Both the position numbers and the translations under genes were made by a program. A stretch of DNA of 61,774 nucleotides from Saccoglossus kowalevskii (Eukaryota > Hemichordata > Enteropneusta > Harrimaniidae): contig NW_003153251.1 in NCBI RefSeq assembly GCF_000003605.2, positions 1-61,774 on the forward strand. The letters are read 5' to 3'. Position 1 is the first letter of the stretch. Each line of letters opens with the position of its first letter. The notes under the pieces were generated by a model. It saw only the letters and a program-made list of their open reading frames with translations. It had not been told where the DNA came from and searched no databases. This document shows positions 21,452 through 61,774 of the stretch, piece by piece.

Positions 21452-22540
21452 TTATTTGGGTTTCTCAAGAAGATTTGTTTCTTCGCCAACTCTGTGCTTC
21501 ATTTCAAAGCACGTGGTCACAAATACAATAATAGAACTGAGAATTACAAGAGCAGAGCCGATTATTTCTAAATCAACTATATGTTTATGGAATACAATGG
21601 CGTCAGCTACAAAGCCAGTAACAATATTGATGTTAAATAAAATTGTGGTTTTACCCGCACTCTGCAACTGTAACGATCGGTTGAACGAGTACAAGAAAGC
21701 GACAAAAAATGCTACCACTCCTACTAGATATGCAATCGCGATAGGACATTCAGGTATCAACGTATATATCCGATCATTACTTGTAGGGTACACTAATATC
21801 AACATAATTATAGTACCACATAACCCATTATAGAATACAACAACTATAAGTGACAGACCATGAGACATTGCTCTGGAACAAACTGCGCCAATCGCGAGGA
21901 GGATCCCTGCTAAAAGGGCGTACACATATCCGAGAGGAGGCGCGTTTGTATCAGTGTCAAAGATAAAATTGGGGTGAGATATTAATACAATTCCAATTAC
22001 ATTTGTTACTACAGAAACACAGTTGTGGAATTTAAACGTCTCCTGTATGAATATACAGGCGAAAAGTGGTGTGAATATTGGTGTTGTTCCTGCTGCTATT
22101 GAAGACGCATCTCCCACTCCAATATTACTCATACCATAGTAAAACAATAGTGACCCTGCAATCTCACAAATGCTTTTAGCTATGTTCAACAGTGTGTCCT
22201 GTCGTCTTAGTGACACAATGTTGATTTTCTTGTAGACAAGCAACGGAATAGTTATTGCCATCATCATCAGTGATTTTACAAGTATAACCTGTGATGGTGA
22301 ATAACCAATCTTGATGCACAGCAGGGCGAATGTATCATAGATTGCTAGACTTGCACCTGACAGTAATCCCATTGTAATTCCTAAGAAGGCTTTCCAGTAG
22401 TGGTGTTCTTTATCCATTGATTGACTCTCATTGATTGGTAAATCATCTATTTTGTCAGTAATGGTATGTAGTTCAAATACATTGGACACACGAATTAAGT
22501 CTTCCGTGATCAGTTGGTCTTTATTGCAATTTGGTTCCAT
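21452..22540 (-). CDS. SLC35G-like EamA-family membrane transporter, copy A
   Basis: A 362-residue protein of the drug/metabolite transporter superfamily, most like animal SLC35G (solute carrier 35 G1-type). It has a hydrophilic N-terminus (about 1-48) and about ten hydrophobic helices (roughly 52-72, 84-103, 123-138, 147-167, 174-189, 204-222, 228-250, 266-285, 297-316, 323-343), arranged as two EamA repeats (about 51-188 and 204-341). Typical EamA signatures are visible: GDASSIAAGTTPIFTPLFAC in repeat 1 and NRSLQLQSAGKTT in repeat 2. The start is the first ATG after the predicted splice acceptor. The coding region is one exon. Family members move organic anions or nucleotide sugars, or interact with ER calcium machinery; the substrate here cannot be read from sequence. 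About 20 residues differ from copy B. The stop TAA lies inside an AATAAA signal. Confidence 0.9.
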   Translation of the reverse strand: MEPNCNKDQLITEDLIRVSNVFELHTITDKIDDLPINESQSMDKEHHYWKAFLGITMGLLSGASLAIYDTFALLCIKIGYSPSQVILVKSLMMMAITIPLLVYKKINIVSLRRQDTLLNIAKSICEIAGSLLFYYGMSNIGVGDASSIAAGTTPIFTPLFACIFIQETFKFHNCVSVVTNVIGIVLISHPNFIFDTDTNAPPLGYVYALLAGILLAIGAVCSRAMSHGLSLIVVVFYNGLCGTIIMLILVYPTSNDRIYTLIPECPIAIAYLVGVVAFFVAFLYSFNRSLQLQSAGKTTILFNINIVTGFVADAIVFHKHIVDLEIIGSALVILSSIIVFVTTCFEMKHRVGEETNLLEKPK

Positions 22541-23720
22541 GTTGTCAGTGTTTACACACCGTGATCTGTAATTTGATAAATTAATTTTAAATCGCTGTCA
22601 CAGAATTAAAATGGAGTTTTGAAATTATGTGAAGTAGTTTAACATAATCGTAACAGTATAACATTAGTTGTTTATTTACCATGGGTCATTGTAATCTAGT
22701 CAGAAATTTGTTTTGCTAACTGAGCATGAGTTAAAATTTAAAAATCAACGTATTTGGAATACTCAGATTGATTGTAGGATTTTGTATAATGAAACAGTGG
22801 TACTTACAACACTGTAGATGTTTGAACAAAATTTTGCCAAAGCCTTTTGTATCCAGCATAAATCTTAGACTTGGGATGAAACTGAGCAAATTTTTGACTA
22901 AACACAAGTGGACAATACTTTCACATTTAGTGAAAATATGAACACCAACATTATGCCCGATGGTGGATTGAACTAGCAATGCCTTTGTGAAGCTTGCACT
23001 GATTCATCGATATAGATAAATTATGCTTGGCATTTAATTGCTTGATAGAATGACAGTACGTGACAATAAATACTGCAAAACCATTTATTTTTTACTGACA
23101 TTTAAATTCACTATTTTGATGTTTTGAACATGCGCACTGTGTTTTAGTTCACAAGTGAAATGATGACTTCGATTGTTATTTAACGGATTTTACTTAGTAA
23201 CGAAAATAACGAAATTAAAATGTGAATAATTAATGCATTCACAGTAAAATATAATTGATCTGACATATAGAGGTTGTTTGTCGTGACTTTGTGATTGTCT
23301 TCGCATTTCAATTGGTGAATTGGATTGTACTGTCGACCAAATCAGATTATGATTGTTCTTAAAAATTTAATGTCCTCTTCCACGTTTCATCTTTAATACA
23401 TTTTAACATATTTTAATACATATTTTCTGTAATTTTTCTTGATTTCTATCGAATATCATTTTCAACCAATGTGAGTATTAATGTAACCCATATTTATCTT
23501 TTCTGCAGCAGAAAACCTTCCAATTCCGTATGTACATGTCAGTTTAATCCTTTGGTACAAAAATAAACCTTGTCGAAAAACATGGTTGTCATATTTTACT
23601 GCAATATAGCAAATGATCATTTTCCTCACCTGTTTTGTTGATATTCCCTTTATGGTTCCCACATCAGGCGCTGATGAGTAGCGTGATGTAAAATCATTCC
23701 ATATTCCGCGTTCTATATAG
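22541..23720 (-). promoter_or_regulatory. Copy A 5' region: untranslated exon 1, 1064-bp intron, promoter
   Basis: On the minus strand a donor AAAACAG|GTGAGG (intron starts at 23629) and an acceptor AAATTACAG|ATCACGG (intron ends at 22566) fit a 5' untranslated exon spliced 25 bases upstream of the ATG. The same donor and acceptor contexts occur at equivalent places in copies B and C, which supports a real splice structure. The exon 1 start is not determined; a CATAAAG motif lies about 25 bases upstream of the donor. Confidence 0.6.
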
Positions 23721-27483: not shown

Positions 27484-28572
27484 TTATTTGGGTTTCTCAA
27501 GAAGATTTGTTTCTTCGCCAACTCTGTGCTTCATTTCAAAGCACGTGATCAAAAATACAATAATGGAACTGAGAATTATAAGAGCAGCTCCGATTATTTC
27601 TAAATCAACTATCTGTTTATGGAATACAATGACGTCAGCTGCAAAGCCAGTAACAATACTGATGTTAAATAAAATTGTGGTTTTACCCGCACTCTGCAAC
27701 TGTAACGATCGGTTGAACGAGTACAAGAAAGCGACAAAAAATGCTACCACTCCTACTAGATATGCAATTGCGATAGGACATTCAGGTATCAACGTATATA
27801 TCCGATCATTACTTGTAGGGTACACTAATATCAACATAATTATAGTACCACATAACCCATTATAGAATACAACAACTATAAGTGACAGACCATGAGACAT
27901 TGCTCTGGAACAAACTGCGCCAATCGCGAGGAGGATCCCTGCTAAAAAGGCGTACACATATCCGAGAGGAGGCGCGTTTGTATTAGTGTCAAAGATAAAA
28001 TTGGGGTGAGATATTAATACAATTCCAATTACATTTGTCACTACAGAAACACAGTCGTGGAATTTAAACGTCTCCTGTATGAATATACAGGCGAAAAGTG
28101 GTGTGAATATTGGTGTTGTTCCTGATGCTATTGAAGACGCATCTCCCACTCCAATATTACTCATACCATAGTAAAAGAATAGTGACCCCGCATTCTCACA
28201 AATGCTTTTAGCTATGTTCAACAGTGTGTCCTGTCGTCTTAGTGACACAATGTTGATTGTCTTGTAGACAAGCAATGGAATAGTTATTGCCATCATCATC
28301 AGTGATTTGACAAGTATAACCTGTGATGGTGAATAACCAATCTTGATGCACATCAGGGCGAATGCATCATAGATTGCTATACTTGCACCTGACAGTAATC
28401 CCATTGTAATTCCTAAGAAGGCTTTCCAGTAGTAGTGTTCTTTATCCATTGATTGACTCTCATTGATTGGTAAATCATCTTTTTTGTCAGTAATGGTATG
28501 TAGTTCAAATACATTGGACACACGAATTAAGTCTTCCGTGATCAGTTGGTCTTTATTGCAATTTGGTTCCAT
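27484..28572 (-). CDS. SLC35G-like EamA-family membrane transporter, copy B
   Basis: 362 residues, about 94-95 percent identical to copy A by direct comparison, with the same ten-helix, double-EamA layout. Substitutions are mostly conservative and concentrated in or near membrane helices (for example Leu to Ile and Leu to Met in helix 1, Ile to Asn at 127, Ala to Ser at 149, His to Gln at 320). There are no frameshifts or stops, so both copies look functional. The reading frame ends in PK followed by TAA embedded in AATAAA, as in A and C. It is divergently oriented from copy C, with about 6.4 kb between the two start codons. Confidence 0.9.
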   Translation of the reverse strand: MEPNCNKDQLITEDLIRVSNVFELHTITDKKDDLPINESQSMDKEHYYWKAFLGITMGLLSGASIAIYDAFALMCIKIGYSPSQVILVKSLMMMAITIPLLVYKTINIVSLRRQDTLLNIAKSICENAGSLFFYYGMSNIGVGDASSIASGTTPIFTPLFACIFIQETFKFHDCVSVVTNVIGIVLISHPNFIFDTNTNAPPLGYVYAFLAGILLAIGAVCSRAMSHGLSLIVVVFYNGLCGTIIMLILVYPTSNDRIYTLIPECPIAIAYLVGVVAFFVAFLYSFNRSLQLQSAGKTTILFNISIVTGFAADVIVFHKQIVDLEIIGAALIILSSIIVFLITCFEMKHRVGEETNLLEKPK

Positions 28573-29760
28573 GTTGTCAGTGTTTACACACCGTGATCTG
28601 TAATTTGATAAATTAATTTTAAATTGCTGTCACAGAATTAAAATGGAGTTTTGAAATTATGTGAAGGAGTATAACATAATCGTAACACTATAATATTAGT
28701 TGTTTATTTACCATTGGTCATTTTAGTCTAGTCGGAAATTTGTTTTGCCAACTGAGTTAAAGTTTAAAAATCAACGTATTTGAAGTACTCAGATGAGTTG
28801 TAGGATTTTGTATAATGAAACAGTGGTACTTACAACACTGTAGATGTTTGAAAAAAATTTTGCCAAAGCATTTTGTATCCAGCATAAATCTTAGATTTGG
28901 GATGAAACTGAGCAAATTTTCGACTCAGCACAAGTGGACAGTATTTCCACGATCTGGGGTGACATTTAGTGAAAATATGAACACCAACATTACAGCCCGA
29001 TGGTGGATTGAACTAGCAATGCCCTTGTGTAATCTGCACAGATTCAACGATATAGATAAATTGTGCTTCAGCGCTTAATTGCTTAAATAATAAATATTGC
29101 AAAACCATTTATTTTTACTGACATTTAAATACACTATTTTGATGTTTTGAACATGCGCACTGTGTTTTAGTTCACAAGTGAAATGATGACTTCGATTGTT
29201 ATTTAACGGATTTTACTTAGTAATGAAAATAACGAAATTAAAATGTGAATAATTAATGCATTTACAGTAAAATGTAATTGATCTGACATCTAGAGGTTGT
29301 TTGTCGTGACTTTGCGATTGTCTTCACATTTAAATTGGTGAATTGGATTGTTTGTTGTTATAGATTGTTTAATAACTGTTTGATACTTAATACTGTAGAG
29401 CAAATCAGATTATGATCGTTCTTAAGCAAAAATACTAAAAATTAAATGTCCTCTTCCACGTTTCTTCTTTAATACATTTCATATTTTCTGTAATTTTTCT
29501 TGATTTCTCTCGCATATCATTTTCAACCAATGTGAGTATTAATGTAACCCATATTTAATTCTCTGCAGCAGAAAACCTTCCAATTCCGTATGTACATGTC
29601 AGTTTAATCCTTTGGTACAAAAATAAACCTTGTCGAAAAACATGGTTGTCATATTTTACTGCAATATAGCAAATGATCATTTTCCTCACCTGTTTTGTTG
29701 ATATTCCCTTTATGGTTCCCAAATCAGGCGCTGATGAGTAATTGGTTTATGATAGTGTGA
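28573..29760 (-). promoter_or_regulatory. Copy B 5' region: untranslated exon 1 and 1092-bp intron
   Basis: Minus-strand donor AAAACAG|GTGAGG (intron start 29689) and acceptor AAATTACAG|ATCACGG (intron end 28598) match those of copies A and C. The intron differs from A's by small indels only. Confidence 0.6.
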
Positions 29761-33699: not shown

Positions 33700-34984
33700 A
33701 AAAAAGGTCAAATCGTCGTGGTGGCTTCAAAATATCGCGAAGATCATCGTCAATAGATGGCGCTATTTACAAGAAAGGTGCACTGTGTTATACATTGCTG
33801 GTGGTGCAGCGTTACCTATATACAAGGAATATACAGCATACTTCCGTATAGGACAGGAGTTCTGGAATTAATTAACGACACAATATCATCATTATAATCT
33901 TATTACTCAACAGTGTCTGATTCGGGTATCATACAGACAATATCAGCAAAACAGGTGAGGAGAAAAATGTTCATTTCCTATGTCGCAGTAAAAGATGTCA
34001 ACCATGCCTTTCGACAAGGTTTATTTTTGTACCTAAATATTATATATGACATGTACATATGGAATTGTCAGGTTTTCTGCAATGTACAAAATTGAATTCA
34101 TAATATGAATTGCAATAATCTTCACAATGGTCGTATGTGATATAAAAAGTGGCATAACATATTTGGGGTCAACTGTTATAAATAGTCACAGCCATACAAA
34201 ATCACGTTTTTTCTAACAATCCAATTCATCAATTCGAACGCGAAGACAACCACAAAGTCATGTCGAACAATCTCTAGATGTCAGATCAATTATAGTTCAC
34301 CGTGAATGCACGGATTTTAAATTCGGTATTTTTGTTGAAAAGTAAAATCCGTTGATTTTAATGTACATGAAAATAAAAAAAAAGAAGTAAGCGTTACCTT
34401 GGCAATTTTGTGAACTGAAACAGAATGAATATGCTAAAAAAATCTAAATATTGAAATATCAGTGATAATAAATTGTTTTACATTATTCAATTTATGATAA
34501 TATTAAGAATTACCGTGTGACATTTCACGTACTGTCAGTCCGCCAAACAGTTAAACTCCGAAGATCAACTTATCTGAACGCTGTTGTTCATATGCGTCTT
34601 GTGCAGCTTTCCCGACCTTCTGAGGTATACGTGAAATAGTAGAATATGAGTCACGAAACTACTGTCTACTTGCTTAATCGGAACTTTCACCTGTTCAGAT
34701 TTCATTAAAAAATCTATGATTTCCGATAATATTCAGGTACCATTGTCTTATTATGAATAATGCCACAATTCATTGCAGTAACTCAAAATCTCATTAGTTG
34801 ATTTCAACAGATAATTTATATCATACACAAATTAAAATTTGTAATACACTTTTCTGATTAAATAAAATAGTTCATCCTAAACAAAGAAATTATGTTTATT
34901 TTTTATTATTAAGACTATTTACATAATTTTCAAAATTTATTAATTATGTGATAGCGATTTAAATATTGATATATCAAATTACAG
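33700..34984 (+). promoter_or_regulatory. Copy C 5' region: untranslated exon 1 and 1030-bp intron
   Basis: Donor AAAACAG|GTGAGG (intron starts 33955) and acceptor AAATTACAG|ATCACGG (intron ends 34984) are conserved with A and B. Upstream, GGTGGTGCAGCGTTACC and ATACAGCATACTTC are the inverse of sequences near 23.74 and 29.82 kb, showing that the promoter region was duplicated with the gene. Confidence 0.6.
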
Positions 34985-35009
34985 ATCACGGAGTGCGAAC
35001 ACTGACAAC

Positions 35010-36089
35010 ATGGAACCAAATGGCAATACCGACAAACCGATCACAGACGACTCCACTCGTGTGTCCAATGTATTCGAACTACATACCATTAATGACAAAA
35101 AAGATCACAATGAGAGCGAATCAATGCACACAAAACACCACTACTGGAAAGCATTCTTAGGAATTACAATGGGATTACTGTCAGGTGCAAGTCTAGCTAT
35201 CTCAGATGTGTTTGCTCTGTTATGTGTCAAGATTGGTTATTCACCATCACAGGTTTTACTTGTCAAATCACTGATGATGATGGCAATAACTATCCCGTTG
35301 CTCGTCTACAGGAAAATTAATATTCTGAAACTCAAACGGAAAGACACTATTTTGAACATTGTGAAAAGCTGTTCTGAAAATGCAGGAGACGTTCTTTTCT
35401 ATTATTCTATGGATGGGATTGGAATGGGAGATGCAACCTCTATAGCCGCAGGAACATTACCAATATTTGCACCTATGTTTGCCTGTGTATTCATACAAGA
35501 GAAGTGTAAACCCCGTGACTGTATTGGTATTGCCATAAATGTTGCTGGTATCATATTAATATCACGACCTGAATTCATATTTGGTACAGCTGCCGCCTCA
35601 TCGGATCTTGGTTATATGTATGCTGTAGCAGCAGGTCTTCTTGTATCCACTGGTGCTGTGTGTGCTAAAGCAATGTCTGATGATCTTTCTCTAATAGTTG
35701 TAGTTTTCTATAATGGGTTATTTGGTTTTGTAATTATGTTGATATTTGTGTACCCTACAAGTAGTGATCGGATATATACATTTATACTTGAATATCCTAT
35801 CACGACTGCATATCTTGTAGGAATGGTAGCATTGTTCCTTGCTTATCTGTATTCGTTTAACAGATCGCTACAATTACAGAGTGTGGGTAAAACATCAATT
35901 TTAACGAACGACTGTCTTGTAGTCAGCTTTATTGCGGATGTTGTTGTGTTTCACCAGGAACTGGTTAGCTTGGAATTAATTGGTGCTGCACTAATAATTC
36001 TAAGTTCCATTCTTGTCTTTGTGTTTACGTGGCTTGAAACAAGACATACCCTTGAAGAAGAAGCTAAACTTCTTCAGAATCCAAAATAA
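35010..36089 (+). CDS. SLC35G-like EamA-family membrane transporter, copy C
   Basis: 359 residues in one coding exon, intact. Same architecture as A and B: hydrophilic N-terminus, then two EamA repeats with about ten helices. It is clearly more diverged from A/B (for example GDATSIAAGTLPIFAPMFAC in repeat 1, and RPEFIFGTAAASSDLGYMYA between the repeats) and closest to the broken copy E. The start is the ATG 25 bases after the acceptor, within the same MEPNGN context as E. The final codons CCA AAA TAA overlap AATAAA. Substrate and membrane location are not determinable; SLC35G relatives sit in plasma membrane, ER or Golgi. Confidence 0.9.
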   Translation: MEPNGNTDKPITDDSTRVSNVFELHTINDKKDHNESESMHTKHHYWKAFLGITMGLLSGASLAISDVFALLCVKIGYSPSQVLLVKSLMMMAITIPLLVYRKINILKLKRKDTILNIVKSCSENAGDVLFYYSMDGIGMGDATSIAAGTLPIFAPMFACVFIQEKCKPRDCIGIAINVAGIILISRPEFIFGTAAASSDLGYMYAVAAGLLVSTGAVCAKAMSDDLSLIVVVFYNGLFGFVIMLIFVYPTSSDRIYTFILEYPITTAYLVGMVALFLAYLYSFNRSLQLQSVGKTSILTNDCLVVSFIADVVVFHQELVSLELIGAALIILSSILVFVFTWLETRHTLEEEAKLLQNPK

Positions 36090-44349: not shown

Positions 44350-46086
44350 CTCAGCGGAAAGTTAATGGGTAAAATGTTTTGATGATTGGATTTGGGTGGC
44401 AAGATTAGAGCCGATATTGTTGAAAAATCATTAACCTTAGTGGCAATTTCGATATCTTCAGACAACACTCTACCATCCTTATTGCAATTCAATTGTTTAG
44501 TAAATGTAGCTCTATTATTATTTAATATACTATTGATAATTTGCCATGTTTTATTAGTATTGCCAATGGTAGATTTTAGTCTTGTAACATAATAATCTCG
44601 TTTTGCTTTTTAGGAGCTTTGTCAGAAGATTTCTTATATTTATTTCTGATTTCTACATTGTGTAGTCTATTTCAAGGTTTTCGAAAAGATAACATTTGCT
44701 ATGATATATTTTAACTGAAGCCTGCTTGGTTGTTACATTACACAATAATTTATAGAATATTTTGAGGGCCTGATTGGGATCATTACAATCATAAACTGGC
44801 TGCCAACAAATATTATTTAAATCAGAAATAAACAGATTTGGATTGTACAAAGAGAAATCACACTTGTAAAATGTTGCATTTTGAGAAAAAAAATCAAAAA
44901 TGGAAATTAAACGATGGGGGTCACTAATATCAGCATGCAAAGTACAACACTCAACATAATAGTCGGTGATGTTGGTGATCACGTGATCAATGACAGTACT
45001 AGTATTTGGAGTAACTCCTCTAGTTGGGACATTAATTAACTGGGAAAAATTATAGCTGTTTAAAAGTGTTTCTAAGGGGGCGTCCAAAATGATATCAATA
45101 TTGAGATTACCCAGAATGATACATTTCTTATTCGCAGTGGAAAAATAGTTTAAACCTGATCAAAACTACCGGTATTAATGAATTCCTGAAAAGGGGTTTT
45201 GGGTTTCCAATAAATAACTGCAATTACAATATTCTTTTATCAAGGGTTGTTTCAACAAAGATAGATTCACAATGGGTAATTTGTAAATGATTGAAGCGAG
45301 TAAATGATAATGAGTTATGTAAATACAAGGCTACACCCCCACCTTGGGAATGTTGACGACTAAAGGTGATAAATTGGTATGCTGGAATAGTATAAAGAGA
45401 ACAATTAGACTTATTGTGAGACATTGAAGATTGAAATAAGTTTTTCAAAATGTTTTGAAGAAGATCTAATATTTAAATTGAAAACTGAAAAAGATTTTTT
45501 AAGTGTCTATCTGTATTAAATTGTTCCAGTGAATATTCTTTACAGATATATTTAGTGGGTTGAATGTCAGCTGTGTCTGTCATGGAATATTTACAGGTAC
45601 ACAGGGAATAATAATAATAATAATAGAATTGTGAATATTGTTGCAGTCGTTTATTTCATCCCTTGTTTCTGTCAACATTTCTCTAAGGTCGTCATTTTCA
45701 GCTTTGAGTTGCACGATCTGTTCTTTGAAATTGTCAAAACAATCACTCACGTATGTGACGGATTGTTGTAATTCCAGTAATTTAACTTCCATGTCAGTTA
45801 GTTTATCTACCTTTGATGTCAGTTCGGTTGGCGTTGCTTGAATCTTATCGGACTTGTTGTCTTCTTTTGAAGTTTCATTGTCTATACGTTGGTCGGCCAT
45901 TTTCGGTGATTTTGGCGCAGGTGGAAAGCGAACAAGTTGACGATTTTTACATAGATGTAAATCACCTTGGCACAGCTTAGCTGTTGCTTGTCCACAGTAC
46001 TGACACTTCATTCGTAGATATGGAAACGTAAGTAAAGGAATAAAATGTTTAGGAGCGATGTGTGTACGAGGCTGACCTCTAGTCAC
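44350..46086 (-). mobile_element. LINE 5' half: ORF1-like protein plus endonuclease, broken
   Basis: Minus strand, in order: an ORF1-like frame (45580-46086) with a C-x2-C...C...C knuckle (CQYCG..LCQGDLHLC) followed by Met-Ala and a long coiled coil; an endonuclease N-part (45224-45448) with HSQGGGVALYLHNSLSFTRF; an endonuclease C-part (44653-45087) with SQLINVPTRGVTPNTSTVID and a DHVITNI segment typical of apurinic endonuclease domains of CR1/L2-type LINEs; and a linker (44360-44640) with NKYKKSSDKAPKKQKRDYYV and NKTWQIINSILNN. The reverse transcriptase is missing. Frames are interrupted between pieces, so it is inactive. Confidence 0.8.
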
Positions 46087-46089
46087 GCC

Positions 46090-47340
46090 ATCATCTATAT
46101 AACATTATATAAAGCGTTGGGTAATACATTTGCTGTACTGCAATCGGGTATACTTTGTAGTATTTTTGTAAAAACCTCATGGAATTTGTGTGAATTACTG
46201 AGATTAATAATTAAGAATCAAACTGATATACGGTGGCAAATTTTGCTAGGCAACAATACAGAACATACCCAATACCTAAAAGGATCTGTTTCTACTTTTG
46301 ATTATAAAACGATGCGGAGATGCAATTTTCTTTCTTTTGCCATGTAATATTGAGGAATTCTCTCCGCATATGCATGAACGAGACATCGCGTCACCAATAG
46401 TAGGCACACTGCCTCTTCTTCTTGTCGTTGGTTTAAATGAAAAGAAACTTCAAATCATGGCCTTTGGAACTGACATGCTAACCAGAAACAGATAGATTTT
46501 AGACTTTCGCCATATATATCTCAGTATTGAAAATTTGAGAGCGTTTTCCATGAAAAAGATGTATTCAAAACAAAACGATTCCGTGCTATTTATAGTTAAA
46601 TCAGGTTGGTAAAAGAAATCAATTTACTCTTAATGACAGTAACGTTATACATGTATATCACTACTTTCAGTAAAACTGTTTCCCAAATGTGAGCACATGG
46701 TTTTACAACATTTACAAAAAAATATAATAAAAAACCCGACCCAAAATAAACTAAACAAACTTTATTTTTTTTACTTTTTATGTGAATCGAAATTGCAGAC
46801 AAATATATGAACATATACACAAATCAGCAAATGCGTAACAATACGAATCTTTGTTATGAAAAAGATTCTTTGAAATGTAGTGTAGTGAATGAACACTTTC
46901 AATGACTAGATGCGCATGCGTAGTCCGAATCTATGACGTCACAAACAACGTGTAGAATATAATTACGCACAAAGATAAAGCCTAGTATAAACATGGTCAG
47001 AACGACGTACCGAGTAGCGATCGCCCACTGGAACAAGCGCAAGACACTTAAAATACCAAATTAAAATCATAATTTTTGTTTTTGAATTGAAAGTTGTACA
47101 ACAAATCAAATTGTCTTTGTCAGTTATTAAAATATTATTAAATTATTTAATAATATTTAATATAATAATGATTAAATTATTAATAATCAAAAGCGTCAGC
47201 TGAAATATGTGGACTATTATTCTAAGTGGAAATAGCCTATATTCACACACCATTCACAATTACAAGCCGATGTATAGGTTCCCTTACTACTAGAATATAT
47301 ATGTGGATTATCACTAATTTTATGTATACACTGCATGATG
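46090..47340. other. Spacer, no gene recognised
   Basis: May include the 5' untranslated part of the LINE. Contains a CRE (TGACGTCA near 46933), an NRF1-like GCGCATGCG near 46912 and AT-rich palindromic sequence near 47110-47190. Short frames have no domains. Confidence 0.5.
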
Positions 47341-47341
47341 A

Positions 47342-48449
47342 CTACGGTTTAGTTTCTTCATATTTATTTTTTTGCTTTGAATGCTGAAGAAGTTTAGTTT
47401 TTTCATGAAAGTTGTGTCTTGTTTCAAGCCAAGTAATCACACAGACAATAATGGAACTTATAATTATTAGTGCAGCACCAATTAATTCCAAGCTAACCAG
47501 TTCCTGGTGAAACACAGTAACATCTGCGATAAAGCTGACTACAAGACATTTATTCGTTAAAATTGATGTTTTACCCACACACTGTAATTGTAGAGATCTG
47601 TTAAACGAATACAAGAAGACAAGGAACAATGCAACCATCCCTACTAGATATGGAATCGTTATAGGATATTCAGGTATCAATGCATATATCCGTTCACTAC
47701 TTGTAGGGTACACTAATATCAACATAAACAAATAACCCATTATAGAAAATTACAACTATTAGGGAAAGATCATCAGACATCGTTCTAGCACATACAGCAC
47801 CGATGGATATAAAGAGACCTGCTGCTACAGCATACATATAACCAAGATCCGAGGAAGCGGCAGCTGTACCAAATATGAATTCAGGTCGTGATATTAATAT
47901 GATACCAGCAACATTTATGGCAATACCAATACAGTCACGGGGTTTATACTTCTCTTGTATGAATATGCAGGCAAACACAGGTGCAAATATTGGTAATGTA
48001 CCTGCTGCTAATGAGGTTGCATCTCCCATTCCAATCCCATCCATGGCGTAATAGAAGACTACGTCTGCTCCGTTCTCACTAACACTTTTCACAATGTTCA
48101 AAATAGTGTCTTTCCGTTTGAGTTTCAGAATATTAATTTTCTTGTAGACAAGCAACGGGATAGTTATTGCCATCATCATCAATGATTTGACAAGTATAAC
48201 CTGTGATGGTGAATAACCAATCTTTACACATAACAGAGCGAATATATCAGAGATACCTAGACGTACACCTGCCAGTAATCCCATTGTAATTCCTAAGAAT
48301 GCTTTCCAGTAGTGTTTTGTGTGCAGTGCTCGACTCTCATTGATTGGTACATCATCCTGTTTGTCAGCTACGGTGTGTAGATCGAATACATTATACGCTT
48401 GAGTGAAGTCTTCAGTGACATGATGCTCAGTATTGCCATTTGGTTCCAT
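47342..48449 (-). pseudogene. SLC35G-like copy E, disrupted by an 8-bp deletion
   Basis: Two overlapping frames together cover a full SLC35G-like protein: residues 1 to about 236 (47697-48449, from MEPNGNTEHH to VVIFYNGLF) and the rest (47342-47740, MLILVYPTSSERI to the end). Copies A, B and C have 32 bases from GGGTTATTTG (or GGGTTATGTG) to TTGATATT, and E has 24. The missing 8 bases lie in the second EamA repeat and shift the frame, giving a stop 12 codons later. The natural stop is also changed: the frame runs past AATAAA for about 14 codons. Closest relative is copy C. A sequencing error is possible but the rest is clean. Confidence 0.8.
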
Positions 48450-48970
48450 AATTTCTGTGTTTCATAACATACGATAAATAATGTGATATTTTTAGATGTA
48501 CTGAATATTAAACTGGTACTGAATATTAAACTGGTCAATATATAATATTTAATTTAAATAATACTAGGAATACATAATACAATATAAAAACGAGTGGAAA
48601 TGGTAAAATGGTCAAAAAATGATACATTCTATATATCATTACAATGATATTTAGTTCAAAATGGTGGCCAGTAAGTGGTGAGCATGAGTATGTCAACACA
48701 AACAATACTGTGTGGAAAGAACAAAGTATGTTATCGGTGCTAAAATAAATACAATGTAAACAAATAGGTTAGTATATCAACAAGTTAAATTATAGCGTGA
48801 TTAAACGGAAAATACTCCACAATCTGATGTAAATATGCCTCACCTCTTATTCTGAGTGTTATTATTTGTACCAGAATTAAATTAATTCATATAAGCTATT
48901 TGTTTGACGTCATCAGAGGAGGGATTACATAAATTTTGAATTCATTTGAGTCTACAAAAATATATTTACC
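48450..48970 (-). promoter_or_regulatory. Copy E 5' region: possible exon 1 and 389-bp intron
   Basis: Minus-strand donor AATAAGAG|GTGAGG (intron starts 48843) and acceptor GAAACACAG|AAATT just before the ATG (intron ends 48455). The acceptor context differs from A-C, and the intron is much shorter. A CRE (TGACGTCA, near 48915) lies upstream. Confidence 0.45.
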
Positions 48971-52850: not shown

Positions 52851-53574
52851 GGGCTAAACTGTTCTATAAAATGAAATTGGTTTGTCGACAATCACGTAAA
52901 AGTTATATTATTAAAACACACAGGGTGGGAGAATGGAATGAAACAATGGATAGATTGCACTGCAAGTATTCGCCCATTTATTCCGGTTTTCACTTACACT
53001 ATAATACAGTGTATGTCCGTATAATACAAATCGATATATTACAAGTAAAATATTTGAGATTGTGAAAAATAGGTCAATCACAACTTATGTTACAAACTAT
53101 ATGTGCAGAACAATTTTAATAACGTCCTCTCTGATTGGTTGGTACGTTAAATTATATGAACAATGGCAATATGACAGTGGTATATGACGCAAAAAATACT
53201 ATACAGTAAAAAGACGACAAAGTGTTATCTGGAAATTGCAAATTCATTAAGAAAAGAAATTTTACTTCTGTTTGACGATGAATATATATATATATATAGT
53301 CTTGGGTAATTAATTAGTTAGTTCCGGTTCCGGTTTTTAGACTGCCATTAACCAGGATGTACAGACGGCAAGCATCACAGTAACCATTGTTGTGGGTTTC
53401 ATTGTTATGCCTGAAATATTAATAAACAAAGACGAATATCGGAAAACAAAATAAATAAACCTGGAGGGGATAGTCATTCAGGCGCAATCAATTGAAATTA
53501 ATACTTATGAGCGTAAACAAAACAATTTCTGCGGGATTTTCAGTACGATAATAGTGCAGTTTGATATGTATTTC

Positions 53575-56500
53575 AGCTCGATTTGTGTGCCAAAATGGAT
53601 TTTATTGGCCTACTTTATTCATTTTGATGTGCTGATTTCAAAAAATGTTGGATGCCATTTTTCCCAGCAATGTCTTGGGCCGCTATTTTGAATTTCAAAA
53701 TGGCCATCAATAAGTGTTTTTTTCTTCTTCTGATTTTAAATAGAATAAATTAAGTAAAACATTTTTTTTATTTTTTGAAACATTATGAGGTACTGCCTAA
53801 TCAGAGAATGACAATATGAAATATTGATACTGTTAAAAAGTTGTTTAAAATTTAACAATCACTGTTTACTTTATAAACCCACTATTTTCCTCCCCAACCA
53901 GCATCGGTAAACGCATGGAGGCCCAGTAGTCCTTTACTTTTCTCACTTCCAACTGCTGAACATCTTGCATGTATGTCAATTGTATGCTTCACTTTTCCTT
54001 TTCCGGAGATGAAATGAAGCTCGCCTGGAATGTTGTTAGTCGAAAACAAGTCCATTAAAAAAATGAACACATCTGTATCTGGTGAATACACATCTATATC
54101 CCGAATTACTCCAGCACTCTTGGATGCATCCAGCACATGCATCGGGATCAATAATGTCTGCTTCCTCATGTGAGTGCTCACCAATATCGGGATCAAAGAC
54201 ATCTAGTTTGTTGGAATACGTTGAGGTTCCATACACAACAACTAAAATCTTGCTGCTATCACCATATTCATGGAGTAGAGCTTTGCCCATGTACTCTATT
54301 AGTTTAGATTTTGTTTGAGTGTGAGACAGCAGGGTTTTCAGTGGTACTAATTTGATATTCATTGAATCCTTGATGTCAAATCAGGTCAACACCGGCCTCG
54401 TGTCTGAGCTTTCAGAGAGTTGTTTATATATTTATCAAAGATAACTCTTCCTTCTTCATACTCAAAAATAACTGTATGAATGCTTCGAACAAAAGCTTGT
54501 GCAAAGTCATGACAATTCACCATCTTTCTTGATAGCTTGGACAACTGCCATCGCATTGATAATGCAAACATTGTATCGACCCTCCAATCTCTTTAGTACG
54601 TTGGGCAAGACTTCTCTAAACTCACTTGATGGTTTCATTTTATATGCTTCGATAGCATGGACAAAGGCACTCTTGTCAGCTGGGATAAGAAGAAGGCCGT
54701 CTGGGAAGAAAAGTGACCTGGGGATAACAGAAAATTCATATTTTCCAATTGTCTCACATAGTGACTGAATCATACTAGGGCGTGACTGCTGAACTACAAG
54801 AAATCTTGCCAATAGTTGTCGATCCTCTCTTAACTTAACAAGTTTATTACCAATTTTGCATATTTTCTTCCTCTGACATCTACTGAATGTCTTCATTTTC
54901 CCATTGGATTCCAAATTGAATTCTCCGCTGTAGATACATCCATTCTCTCAGACACAAACTCTTCAAACCTGTTGGTCCACTTGGCATCTCTGAGGAGAAT
55001 ATCTTTCTTGGCAGTTTCTGGAACTTCCGTATTAGATGCCATGTTCATAAGCTTTATTGTCTTACACGAGATGGGGGTTCCACCACAGTGTTTGATAAAG
55101 CCCTCCTTGATTGTGGCTCAATTGTTAAACATGCGAAGTGATACTGAACCACTCAGTTAATAATGTTCCTTGATTTTTGCATGGTCACCATAGTCTTGGA
55201 ATTGTTGAATAAGATTGATTAGCTCAGGAGCAATTCAGAAGAATCTATCTTAATTTTGTGTAATTCCAGTAATTTTTCTAGCAACCTTGTGGTCTCTGAT
55301 AAGTTGTTCCAGTGTCTGATGAACAAATAGATTTGTGAATGGAATGGCCGATATAATCACCACAAAATCGCCACTTTTCAGAGCATTCCAGGTTTCTTAA
55401 GCAGCTTCATTTGTGCAAAATATACTGACACAAGTCGGGCATACTTGTGGAGATCATGAGCAAAGTAGTACTTGACTTGCACTTCAAGAGCACCAAGATG
55501 AAGCTCCCACTCTCCCGAATAAGGTGGTGTAAACTCTTTACCGGCTTCATATAACTCTCGTGCCATCTCCTCGTTTTGACTGATTACCAGCATTGTACCA
55601 TGAAGAGTGTTCTGACCATCTGCAGTGTTCTCTAGAAAATCAGTATTATCTGCAGCAAAGTAAACAGACTTTTGTTTATTACAAAGGGTTGCAAACAAAA
55701 CCCACCAGTTGTCTTCATTCGTTCAGCAACTCCACAAGCAATACGCTTTTCTATGTTGACAACCTTGTCATAACTAGACCCAATCTGTAGATGGGAAAGA
55801 ACATTCACAAGATCCTTACTTCTTGTTATTTTGTGAATCGTGAGTGCTAATTCAATCGAAAGTGATGTTTCAGTTCGGAATCTGAATCCAGTGTCTGATG
55901 CTGGTTGATAAGAGGTCTGTCGGTCTTTTTTGTCTGTTAGGTATGCAGTATCTGTTGCGACACAAGATTTTCTTTTTGGAAGTTTCATCACGTTTTCCTT
56001 TCACATCTTTGTTTTTAGTTCCGGTGAGGAGCCATCTGATGAAGGAAGTCAGCAGTGGTGGAGATTCAAATTTCTTCAGCGATTCAGACCCTGTAAACTT
56101 CCAGTGGTCACAAGTATCCGCAAGATAATTGACATCGTCTCCATCATTCTGGTGCTCACGAAGGTTACTAACAGACATTCCAAGTAGTTTCTCACTTTCT
56201 CACTTTCGTATGCCCGATGTGATTTAACAAATGTAGCATCTTCAATGTTTTCACATATGATACTTTTTAGATGTTTTTTTATGATGGCTAGAACCTGGAT
56301 CCACATCATTTCATTCAGTAAGGAAACATATTCTTCATTGATATCATTCATTGTTATAACAGAGCCTGAAATCAAAGAGCACTTGATGGCATTGAAGATG
56401 TCAACATCAGCAATATATTTCGACCTCGACTGTATATCACAATTTGACATGACTTGCTGTATTTTTCACTCATGTCTCTAAGACCATGTTTGCGATAAAT

Positions 56501-57660
56501 CAAATCACATGCAGCACAGTAGGAAGGCTGGTTTACATGGGTTAGAGCTATTCTAATTTTTCCATCTGCTGTGTTTGATTTAATGAACATTGCCTTACTT
56601 TCAGCTAGATGGATTTCATCACTTCTTGGTTTGGAGCTTTGAAATACACGTATATTTTTGTTTAAAACAATGGCAGATCGTTTTATTCGAGGTACTGTAC
56701 TGCATGATGGTGAATGTGGTCTTGAAAGGCGTCCTTTCTTTGGATGCACTACTCACTTTGATGAGGATGAAGCTTCAATAAATCTCTTTTCGGCATTTTT
56801 TAATTTCTCATTAAGTACAATGTTTTATTAGCATCCAGAATAATATATTGACTCAAAATATTCCTCTTCTGTAAGACTTGCTACAGAGAGGTGACAAGTA
56901 TGTTTCCCCAAAATGATGCACATTTATTTGCATAGTCTCTGACCTTTTCCCGGCTCTCCCAAGGTGGCTTTAGCATTAAGGGTATTTCTCCGCCAATATT
57001 TAGGCATATGATGCACGTTCGTAGAGACGTTTTGGTCATAGAGGATGAAAATATGGTGTCCATGGTGTTGTTTTCTAGTTGCTTTTATACCTAATACGAA
57101 GGGTGGATAAGTAAGGGTTAGTATGTATGTAAGTCATGAAGCCAAGATCCCACGGAAATTTCGTCTTGTACTATGTGATATTTGGAATGTAATGTAGTCG
57201 AACAACATGTTCTGGAATGAAAAATTCTATCTATCACAATTTTGTTAACACTCCCACACATACCTGCGACTTTTCGCATACTCATTGGAAATGTGTTCCA
57301 AATATCGTGTATTGCGAGACAAGATTTCAGTGGAATCTTGGCCTTATGACTTACCACATACTAATTTATGGACCTTGATAACCCCTGGTTATCTACCTCT
57401 GCTAAAAACCTAAAACAAATGCACACAAATTAAAAAAAGCTTGCATCCCTAACCGCCATCTTTGAAATTACAATTTTATGAAGGTTCCTTATCATGAAAA
57501 TATAGCAATTTCCACTATAAAACAGTTCTAAGGAGTCAATAATAAAGACATCTCCCAAAAATATGCTAAAAATGGCGGCCATTTAGAATTCCAAATCAGC
57601 ACATCAAAATTGATAAAGTAAGCCAATAAAACCTATTTTGGCCTAAAAATCTAGCTAGCC
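53575..57660. mobile_element. About 4.1-kb element with inverted terminal repeats enclosing a HEEADTR-family remnant
   Basis: The left end (53575 onward: AGCTCGATTTGTGTGCCAAA, then ATGGATTTTATTGGCCTACT and ATTTTGATGTGCTGATTT) is the inverse, at roughly 80-85 percent, of the right end (about 57590-57660: AAATCAGCACATCAAAATTG, AAGTAAGCCAATAAAACC, GGCCTAAAAATCTAGCT). The similarity covers about 70 bases. The interior carries the pseudogene at 53882-56749. No target-site duplication was identified, so DNA-transposon identity is inferred. Confidence 0.6.
53882..56749 (-). pseudogene. Decayed HEEADTR-family repeat protein, copy 2
   Basis: Minus strand, pieces in several frames from N to C. They are a Lys/Arg-rich N-terminus with VNQPSYCAACDLIYRKHGLR (about 56.45-56.55 kb); VLSHLQIGSSYDKVVNIEKR (55.75-55.8 kb); VYFAADNTDFLENTADGQNT and LHGTMLVISQN (55.57-55.67 kb); EWELHLGALEVQVKYYFAHD and YARLVSVYFAQMKLLKK (55.4-55.53 kb); SRPSMIQSLCETIGKYEFSV and IPRSLFFPDGLLL (54.68-54.8 kb); LLSHTQTKSKLIEYMGKALL (54.27-54.33 kb); HSHEEAD (54.16 kb); IDVYSPDTDVFIFLMDLF (54.05-54.1 kb); GLLGLHAF (53.91 kb). 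A frameshift lies right after HEEAD. The Cys-rich tail present in copy 1 is missing. No biochemical function is known to me for the family. Confidence 0.65.
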
Positions 57661-57882
57661 TCAAATATCTGACATAGGCAGATATACTGTAATGTGTAGT
57701 CTGGATTTGTACCTGTGTCACTCCATCCCACAACATATCCCTTTTCCTCGTTCTTCTCTTCTAACCAAGTCATCAGCGGTTTGAAGTAATCAACTATGGC
57801 CGAGGCGTCCATCTCCCTGCTTCCTGTTATAGCTTCCAGTGCCTCAGGCCATTTTTTACTTGAACCAAGCTTTAACATATCC
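57651..57882 (-). CDS. ACE: ACE exon: C-terminal part of the peptidase domain
   Basis: Acceptor GATTCTAG at 57883-57890 (minus), then GG that completes a Gly codon split with the exon at 59309-59431. It encodes [20 protein letters not shown], then [20 protein letters not shown] and GYVVGW, the conserved C-terminal helices of ACE-type (M2 family) peptidases. The end is uncertain: either a donor CAG|GTACAA at about 57710 after GWSDT, or read-through to a TAG at 57651-57653. That stop falls at the outer edge of the inverted terminal repeat of the neighbouring mobile element. In the first case further C-terminal exons would lie downstream and were not recognised. Confidence 0.85.
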
Positions 57883-58943
57883 CTAGAATCGTCAATTTGA
57901 AAAGATTGTAAAACATTTTGTTTATTTAGTTACAAGTTATAGACCAACTAAACCCCATTAAAACTATTCTAGCAATATGATAGATGCTCAGTAGTAGAAA
58001 ATTTGATGTTTTTTCCCACAATGCATTGTACACATGTGCAGTAACATGCTCAGTAGTATACCGACCGTTTCGCCATATCTTAACTCGTCCTGGACTGTCG
58101 AAATGCGGAAGTGAATTCCCTGTTACAACATTCTGCTAAAAATTACACTCCCCTTAAAAAGTTGATTTCTTTTTCCTAATATGTGTGTAAGGTCAGAGTT
58201 TGTATAAACTTTTCCAAAAGAAATGCGTTATTCTTAAAGATGGTTGTTGGTTTCATTATATGTGTTATTCCTAGACTAAAAGCGGAACAAGCTGAGCCCT
58301 TTTAAACGATGTGGTTGAAATAACGACCTTATTTGAAGACAGTAAAGTGATCGTCTTGTGCGTGGCGGAGGTTGGTGAATTCCCGTACTGCCTGAGTGCT
58401 TACTTTACGACATCCTTATGATACCCTTATTATTATATTTCTTTCTTTTATATATTATCTTATATCGGGTTGTACTCATTATTTACTGGGAATGTTTTAT
58501 TTTAAAACTCAAGAATGACAGAATCTTATGCTATAATAGAAGGATGCCTTGGCATATAAAATAGATATAATCCATACGGAAAGCAAAAAAATTTGAGAAA
58601 CAAAATAAAAATTCAATGTCACAGCGAATGTTTGTGCTTCAACTTTGAATAAATCTTCAGAGGATTTAATTCGAACAATTGAATAGGCTAGTTCTCTCGT
58701 GCTGAAACATTTCCTAAGCCTCGACTGATTACTGTCGTTGGGGGCGTGGTCCACAGGCGACATTTCAATCGCAATCAGTAGGATTAACCTTTTGTTTTGA
58801 AATACGCTGGATTACTCAAAGTTTTATATAAAACAATATTTCTTTTGACCAAAACCAAGAAAATTGAATAAATAGCCACGGAAACCAGACACAAAAAGTA
58901 GACTCGCTCTTGAGCACAATGGCGTGAAGGAGCCGTACCGGCA

Positions 58944-60738: not shown

Positions 60739-61079
60739 TATTAATAAAATGGTATTTACAAAACGAGAATTGAAATTACTATGGCTGACCGAGTACATCG
60801 TTTAATTATTACATCCTCGTTCGTATGCAATCTTGCTATAGTCATTGAATGTATTCGTCAAATTATAGAGTCATCACAAAACTATGACATTTGAGCGTTG
60901 TATTTAATATCATGTTTAAATTTAGTCGTCGATGGTGCGAACGTTTGAGCATCTACTAGTCAGTTACCTTGCACGTCTTGAATGAAATTAGAACGAGCCT
61001 ACACACTACGACGTACTGGGACTGATTCTAACGCGCAGACGTAATGTATAACACAAAAAATGAAATCAGACATCATTAC

Positions 61080-61313
61080 CGGCATCATCTTCAACCGTAT
61101 CTAATAAACCAATTTGATGTAAGTGATCGGGTGTGGATACGGACAGAGCAAGTAAGTCACCAACAGCTTCATGGAATCCTGGGTTGGCTCCTCTGCGATA
61201 CACGACCGGTTGATCTTTATATTGCAGGAAATATTGTGTATGTCCCATTTCATGGTGAATGGTTATCAGATCTTCCATATTGATTGATGTGCACATTTTG
61301 ATTCTGAATAATA
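61080..61313 (-). CDS. ACE: ACE exon: catalytic HEMGH exon
   Basis: Acceptor TTATTCAG|AATCAAAATG (exon starts 61313) and donor GATGCCG|GTAATG (intron starts 61079). It encodes [20 protein letters not shown] then [45 protein letters not shown] supplies the two zinc-binding His and the catalytic Glu, and the Glu of FHEAVGD is the third zinc ligand. The sequence is ACE-like rather than ACE2-like ([15 protein letters not shown]). ACEs are extracellular zinc dipeptidyl carboxypeptidases that trim peptide hormones; the catalytic set is complete, so activity is expected if the gene is whole. Confidence 0.97.
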
Positions 61314-61396
61314 ACCATAAAACTTGTTTATAAATGGAGGAGAACTCTTGACGGAAGCTAGTGACTAATAATAAAAGAAAGACAGATTTCACAAAC

Positions 61397-61569
61397 CTTA
61401 TATCTTTTGCGTTGTAGAAATCCCAGGCCGATGCATGGCAGACCACATCTCTACCATCCGTCGGTTTCACGAACATGGTGTCATCCCAGAAGGATTGAGG
61501 CGAAGGGATCAAACCAAGAGATGTGAAGAACTCCTCGGATATATTGAACATGCGCAGTGCGTCATAACC
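61397..61569 (-). CDS. ACE: ACE exon: region upstream of the active site
   Basis: Donor GATATAAG|GTTTGT (intron starts 61396; the intron to the next exon is only 83 bp and is open in the reading frame). Likely acceptor ATTATCCACCAG, with the exon starting at 61569 in phase 0. It encodes [20 protein letters not shown], then [20 protein letters not shown] and [25 protein letters not shown] and [11 protein letters not shown] are highly conserved in ACE. The frame stays open upstream to an ATG at 61602, but that stretch looks like intron. The 5' exons (signal peptide and N-terminal half of the domain) lie beyond the right edge. Confidence 0.93.
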
Positions 61570-61656
61570 CTGGTGGATAATTAAGTTATCCATATCAGAC
61601 AATTTAATGACAATATCGGTGTGAGAGGGTGAGTGTATATGATTGTGGGTTGTCAG

Positions 61657-61774
61657 ATGAGTGAATGAATGAGTGAGTGAGTGAGTAAGTGAGTGAGTGT
61701 GTGTGTGTGTGTGTGTGTGAGTGAGTCAGTGAGTGAGAGAGTGAGTTTGTGAGTGAGTGAGTGAGTGAGTGGGT
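61657..61774. repeat. (GAGT)n / (GT)n microsatellite
   Basis: Tandem GAGT units with an internal GT run (about 61698-61719), reaching the window edge, within the next ACE intron. Confidence 0.95.

Follow-up and report, generated by a model that had tools for sequence, protein, structure and literature searches.

A probable dead DNA transposon of Saccoglossus kowalevskii that carries a HEEADTR gene and most likely belongs to the Academ superfamily

A stretch of 61,774 nucleotides from the hemichordate Saccoglossus kowalevskii (contig NW_003153251.1, positions 1 to 61,774 of the forward strand; referred to here as the window) was analysed around a broken gene of the HEEADTR/SPDTDV protein family. 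The element that carries this gene is very probably the decayed remnant of a once autonomous DNA transposon that moved by cut-and-paste; its most likely placement is in the Academ superfamily (AcademX type). The HEEADTR protein most likely represents the transposase itself, judging by a conserved D-D-E triad, and is followed by a nuclease domain with a predicted FEN-type fold.

The initial annotation had described inverted repeats of about 70 bp lying 4.1 kb apart on either side of the gene. These repeats are real: the two arms (64 nt, ungapped, 86% complementary) were recovered by self-BLAST with an E value of 8.6e-14, and the best inverted 64-mer match comprised 55 of 64 positions, compared with 36–40 in 20 simulated first-order Markov sequences used as a control. 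The HEEADTR gene lies between them. The arms had been taken as the ends of the element and proved to be subterminal. BLAST homology between the window and locus L050 starts exactly at 53552 and homology between the window and locus L048 ceases at 57688; the ends were therefore placed at 53552 and 57689. The tetranucleotide AGCT, a candidate 4-bp target-site duplication (TSD) at the outer boundaries of the arms, was rejected: it is a palindrome, and the sequence on both sides of it is common to other copies.

The genome (572,110,611 bases in 4830 contigs) was searched using 777 residues of the read-through protein. At least 49 matches to the HEEADTR family were found on at least 28 contigs, including that of the window. 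18 stretches were examined, 17 around gene matches and one around a lone terminal inverted repeat (TIR). The ends of the window element recur at four other loci, with the gene between both ends in L048, the gene and one end in L047 and in L050 (the other side of the latter being an assembly gap) and a lone end in L051. In both the window and L048 the gene occupies most of the element. Copies L049, L053, L054, L055 and L056 contain long uninterrupted reading frames of up to 557 residues. L049 and L056 are approximately 94–96% alike, which suggests that this lineage may have been active more recently.

Flanking repeats were assayed at 16 loci, including the window, by aligning the upstream flank of the gene to the reverse complement of the downstream flank, with six shuffles per locus (L046, L051 and L056 are not among the 16). 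Inverted repeats well above the shuffles were obtained at six loci: the window, L040, L041, L043, L048 and L052. Values above the shuffles were not counted for L055 and L047 (AT-rich matches of 23 and 34 nt, respectively), L050 (34 nt, in a flank consisting largely of N) and L042 (by one point), and the repeats of L041 were counted as bracketing with their exact ends not fixed. The distant loci L040, L041, L043 and L052 are bracketed by inverted repeats that differ from those of the window. L040 and L056, the DNA of which is about 90% alike, have an identical 5′ end to the base.

Twelve of the 13 compared ends start with YAGT and the remaining one starts with TGGT; L050 provides a further YAGT. 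The compared ends belong to four TIR lineages, so that some of the rows are related to one another. Most of the YAGT ends were placed by eye once the motif had been noticed, on which the limits found by BLAST for L050, L048 and L040/L056 do not depend. If the elements are taken to end at YAGT, TAA/TAA flanks that of the window and AAT/AAT flanks L052. A 3-bp TSD in two of the five two-ended elements is suggestive, not decisive.

Family profiles were made from open reading frames (ORFs) of the genome and the window; only rows that covered at least half of a motif stretch were displayed. The first catalytic aspartate (D1), the D of DN (mostly ADNxD), was present in every one of the 16 rows displayed, one locus being represented twice. 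The second (D2) was situated in a hydrophobic stretch (LVDQAIY, TLDLDPY, AADHPLF) in all ten rows with letters there (13 printed), and the glutamate of DxxxEQ-like motifs was found in 11 of 12 rows, being replaced by D in L040. The D1–D2 spacing in L056 is 176 residues. The order of parts along the L049 gene (Cys/His motifs, assigned by eye, followed by D1, D2, E and the nuclease) is, to judge from the sequence, that of a DDE transposase. Because the D-D-E triad is conserved in the gene, the gene most likely encodes the transposase and not cargo. The initial annotation had left open whether the family was the gene of a DNA transposon or its cargo; the former is favoured and the latter disfavoured. 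That HEEADTR genes belong to DNA transposons is supported by the ends shared with L047, L048 and L050 and by the differing inverted repeats around the distant loci. Comparison of the relatives with Pfam gave scattered hits only (best E 0.003), and those for which a cut-off was shown fell below it. A resemblance to DUF6589, for which no paper was found in the open literature searched, was not informative: it was seen in one of 12 members, below the cut-off.

The nuclease domain was modelled using the relative L049 (predicted local distance difference test score, pLDDT, of 79.7). The 50 structural matches listed were all FEN, Exo1, Xrn/Rat1 or phage 5′-nucleases, and the C-terminal domain of HEEADTR can be assigned a FEN-type predicted fold with fair confidence. 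The nuclease of AcademX is of the XPG type. The nuclease part of the window copy entered the family profile with an E value of 1.1e-30 in the third round, in which the profile may already have contained it. A Pfam scan of the 1067-residue read-through gave no match at E <= 10. A comparison with a profile of just two rows gave no significant result; a designed protein (E 0.0049) topped the PDB list for that profile.

The window copy is dead: it contains stops and frameshifts and has lost the second catalytic D. HEEAD is followed by a change of frame and SPDTDV is intact. D1 and E are kept, and the stretch missing at the internal junction encodes the D2 block in L048. After the last coding fragment, L048 has an extra 675 bases and L050 an extra 658, a stretch that L047 lacks. 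If the internal and post-coding stretches were both lost in the window, an intact parent would have measured about 5.7 kb. The features are collected in Table 1.

Table 1. Features of the HEEADTR element in the window (strand '.' where none applies).
Feature	Position	Strand	Basis or remark
Transposon copy, whole, 4138 bp	53552..57689	- (gene strand)	Homology limits with L050 and L048; YAGT termini
B-end TIR, 3′ side of gene	53552..53679	+	Includes the initially annotated arm 53575-53638
A-end TIR, 5′ side of gene	57554..57689	-	Includes the initially annotated arm 57593-57656
Candidate left TSD, TAA	53549..53551	.	Identical to 57690-57692 at the YAGT boundary
Candidate right TSD, TAA	57690..57692	.	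Identical to 53549-53551
Internal inverted repeat, 57118-57187 / 57296-57364, arms ~70 nt, 80%	57118..57364	.	Directly upstream of the transposase ORF
HEEADTR/SPDTDV transposase-nuclease gene, broken	~53882..57084	-	Spread over all three frames, many stops
FEN/XPG-like nuclease part, C-terminal (HEEAD, SPDTDV motifs), last segment missing	53885..54944	-	Family profile; predicted fold of relative L049
Fragment with first catalytic D (FAADNTDF)	55381..55722	-	Family alignment
Fragment with catalytic E (HQTLEQ)	55253..55396	-	Family alignment
Internal deletion junction	55561..55569	-	9 bases here; L047 and L048 have 861 and 953 bp, respectively

The internal inverted repeat was considered as an inserted miniature inverted-repeat transposable element; this was ruled out by its presence in L047 and of a single arm in L048, from which the repeat predates the split of these copies. 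It is a possible regulatory hairpin. A GCCATYTTG-like motif was observed a few hundred bases or less from the ends in the window element, L043, L048 and L052 (not near the ends in L040) and is a candidate binding site for the transposase.

Several results weigh against an Academ-like transposon. HEEADTR genes without inverted ends, which the initial annotation had regarded as speaking against its proposal, do occur: ten of the 16 loci lack clear flanking inverted repeats. In six of these (L039, L047, L049, L050, L054 and L055) the flanks are interrupted by runs of N or by the end of a contig; L042, L044, L045 and L053 have N-free flanks and still gave nothing clearly above the shuffles. We infer that these four are decayed, or that their ends are short or lost. 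Three of the five two-ended elements (L048, L040 and L043) are without a 3- or 4-bp TSD. The ratios of nonsynonymous to synonymous substitution rates between young copies (0.14–1.7 in seven comparisons) are uninformative. The AlphaFold (AF2) model of the D1–D2 region has a pLDDT of 51.3, too poor to confirm a DDE fold, and the DDE core was compared with Academ by description only. For the nuclease, Foldseek gave no PDB match at E <= 0.001, with unrelated folds mixed in from rank 10, and hmmsearch reached Exo1 at an E value of 0.18 only.

The ten unbracketed loci would be accounted for if the repeats had arisen by chance, or by nested insertions, around a host gene. Given the Markov control and the occurrence of the same ends at independent loci, the probability of this is negligible, and for the window it is contradicted by L048 and L050. 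Capture of the HEEADTR protein as cargo (a host or selfish nuclease, the transposase lying elsewhere) is very improbable: although the window copy, devoid of the D2 block, seems incomplete, in its relatives the nuclease is preceded by D1, D2 and E, and in both the window and L048 little of the element lies outside the gene.

A DDE superfamily not yet named and separate from Academ, with YAGT ends, a TSD of 3 bp and a FEN/XPG-like nuclease that forms part of the transposase and acts in strand processing, is unlikely, if deserving of more weight. It would agree with the lack of a convincing Pfam match for the read-through or the relatives and with the fact that HEEADTR was found in no paper of the open literature searched, although a link to Academ may have been published, or be recorded in Repbase, all the same. 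Against it, a nuclease and a TSD of 3 or 4 bp have already been published for AcademX, according to the available part of the source, AcademH having a helicase and a TSD of 9–10 bp (Kojima; PMC10045372). Academ families are also common in bivalves and average 5565 bp in a curated library, in the part available of that report (PMC10294476). Since a DDE transposase, a nuclease, TIRs and short TSDs match the description of AcademX, the element is filed as most likely Academ. The designation 'undescribed' in the initial annotation is accordingly probably wrong, as far as the accessible description of AcademX goes and with membership itself being inferred.

In the proposed working of the Academ-like element, a single protein would carry zinc-finger-like Cys/His motifs at its N terminus, followed by a DDE transposase core and, at the C terminus, a FEN/XPG-like 5′-nuclease. 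The ends may be bound by the N-terminal motifs and the transposase. The DDE centre would then cut and join the YAGT ends with a 3-bp stagger, leading to a 3-bp duplication on insertion, and the FEN-like domain could process 5′ ends, flaps or the non-transferred strand while the element is being excised or the gap repaired. The window copy is no longer capable of these steps.

Exons of an angiotensin-converting-enzyme (ACE) gene (Peptidase_M2) were noted at 57654-57929 and 61069-61725. The A-end (57689) lies at most about 30 bases from a CAG|GTACAA splice-donor-like site (assigned by eye) after an ACE exon, and the transposon seems to lie where an intron of the ACE gene begins, or in the 3′ region of that gene, on the strand that the two have in common. 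Elsewhere in the window, EamA/SLC35-like transporter genes in mixed orientation are present at 21452-22597, 27484-28629, 34944-36089 and 47697-48461 (shorter). Stretches of the four are 73–91% alike in DNA, Pfam gave EamA for the two scanned and, on this likeness, they appear as a local gene-family expansion. The regions 44653-45159 and 45580-46104 resemble, by eye, ORFs of a non-long-terminal-repeat retrotransposon; the first had no Pfam match and the second had hits below the cut-off only.

No relatives were found in viral and genome contig collections, a single 15-residue match being taken as chance. An 18-mer of the TIR matched four viral contigs over about 20 bases only, and phages, plasmids and PHROGs gave nothing useful. 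SPDTDV occurs in the open literature searched in two phosphoproteomic papers only.

A repeated protein family without a convincing Pfam match is thereby given a function, and annotators can mask it as a transposon. The puzzling family is most likely explained by a known kind of transposon, Academ, and not by a new system. Ends that can be tested (YAGT, 3-bp TSD) are supplied together with a fused nuclease whose predicted fold is fairly confident, which opens the role of accessory nucleases in transposition to experiment.

The nuclease is comparable to FEN1/EXO1/XPG and Xrn nucleases in its predicted C-terminal fold and in the order of its acidic motifs; it differs from them in being fused to a transposase and in having 9–15% identity in the listed structural alignments. 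Kolobok lineages D, E and P, which occur in molluscs, likewise join a DDD/E transposase with an accessory nuclease, as described in the accessible part of PMC9587614. On the same partial account, their TTAA TSD and 5′-RR termini differ from the YAGT termini and TAA or AAT found here, and their nucleases are DEDDh, lambda-type and His-Me in contrast to the FEN-like domain. Kolobok does not fit: TTAA was present on both sides in none of the five two-ended elements, and no compared end had the 5′-RR terminus. The Academ superfamily and its AcademX lineage have been described by Kapitonov and Jurka (2010) and Kojima (2020), as cited in the available parts of PMC10045372 and PMC4455052. The element was set beside AcademX by published description only, on which no difference was established and Academ membership is most likely: the two share a DDD/E transposase (here at the motif level) with a nuclease encoded alongside, TIRs and, within what is accessible of the library report, a length near the Academ mean; for the TSD of 3–4 bp the agreement is suggestive only, with 3 bp in two of five elements here.
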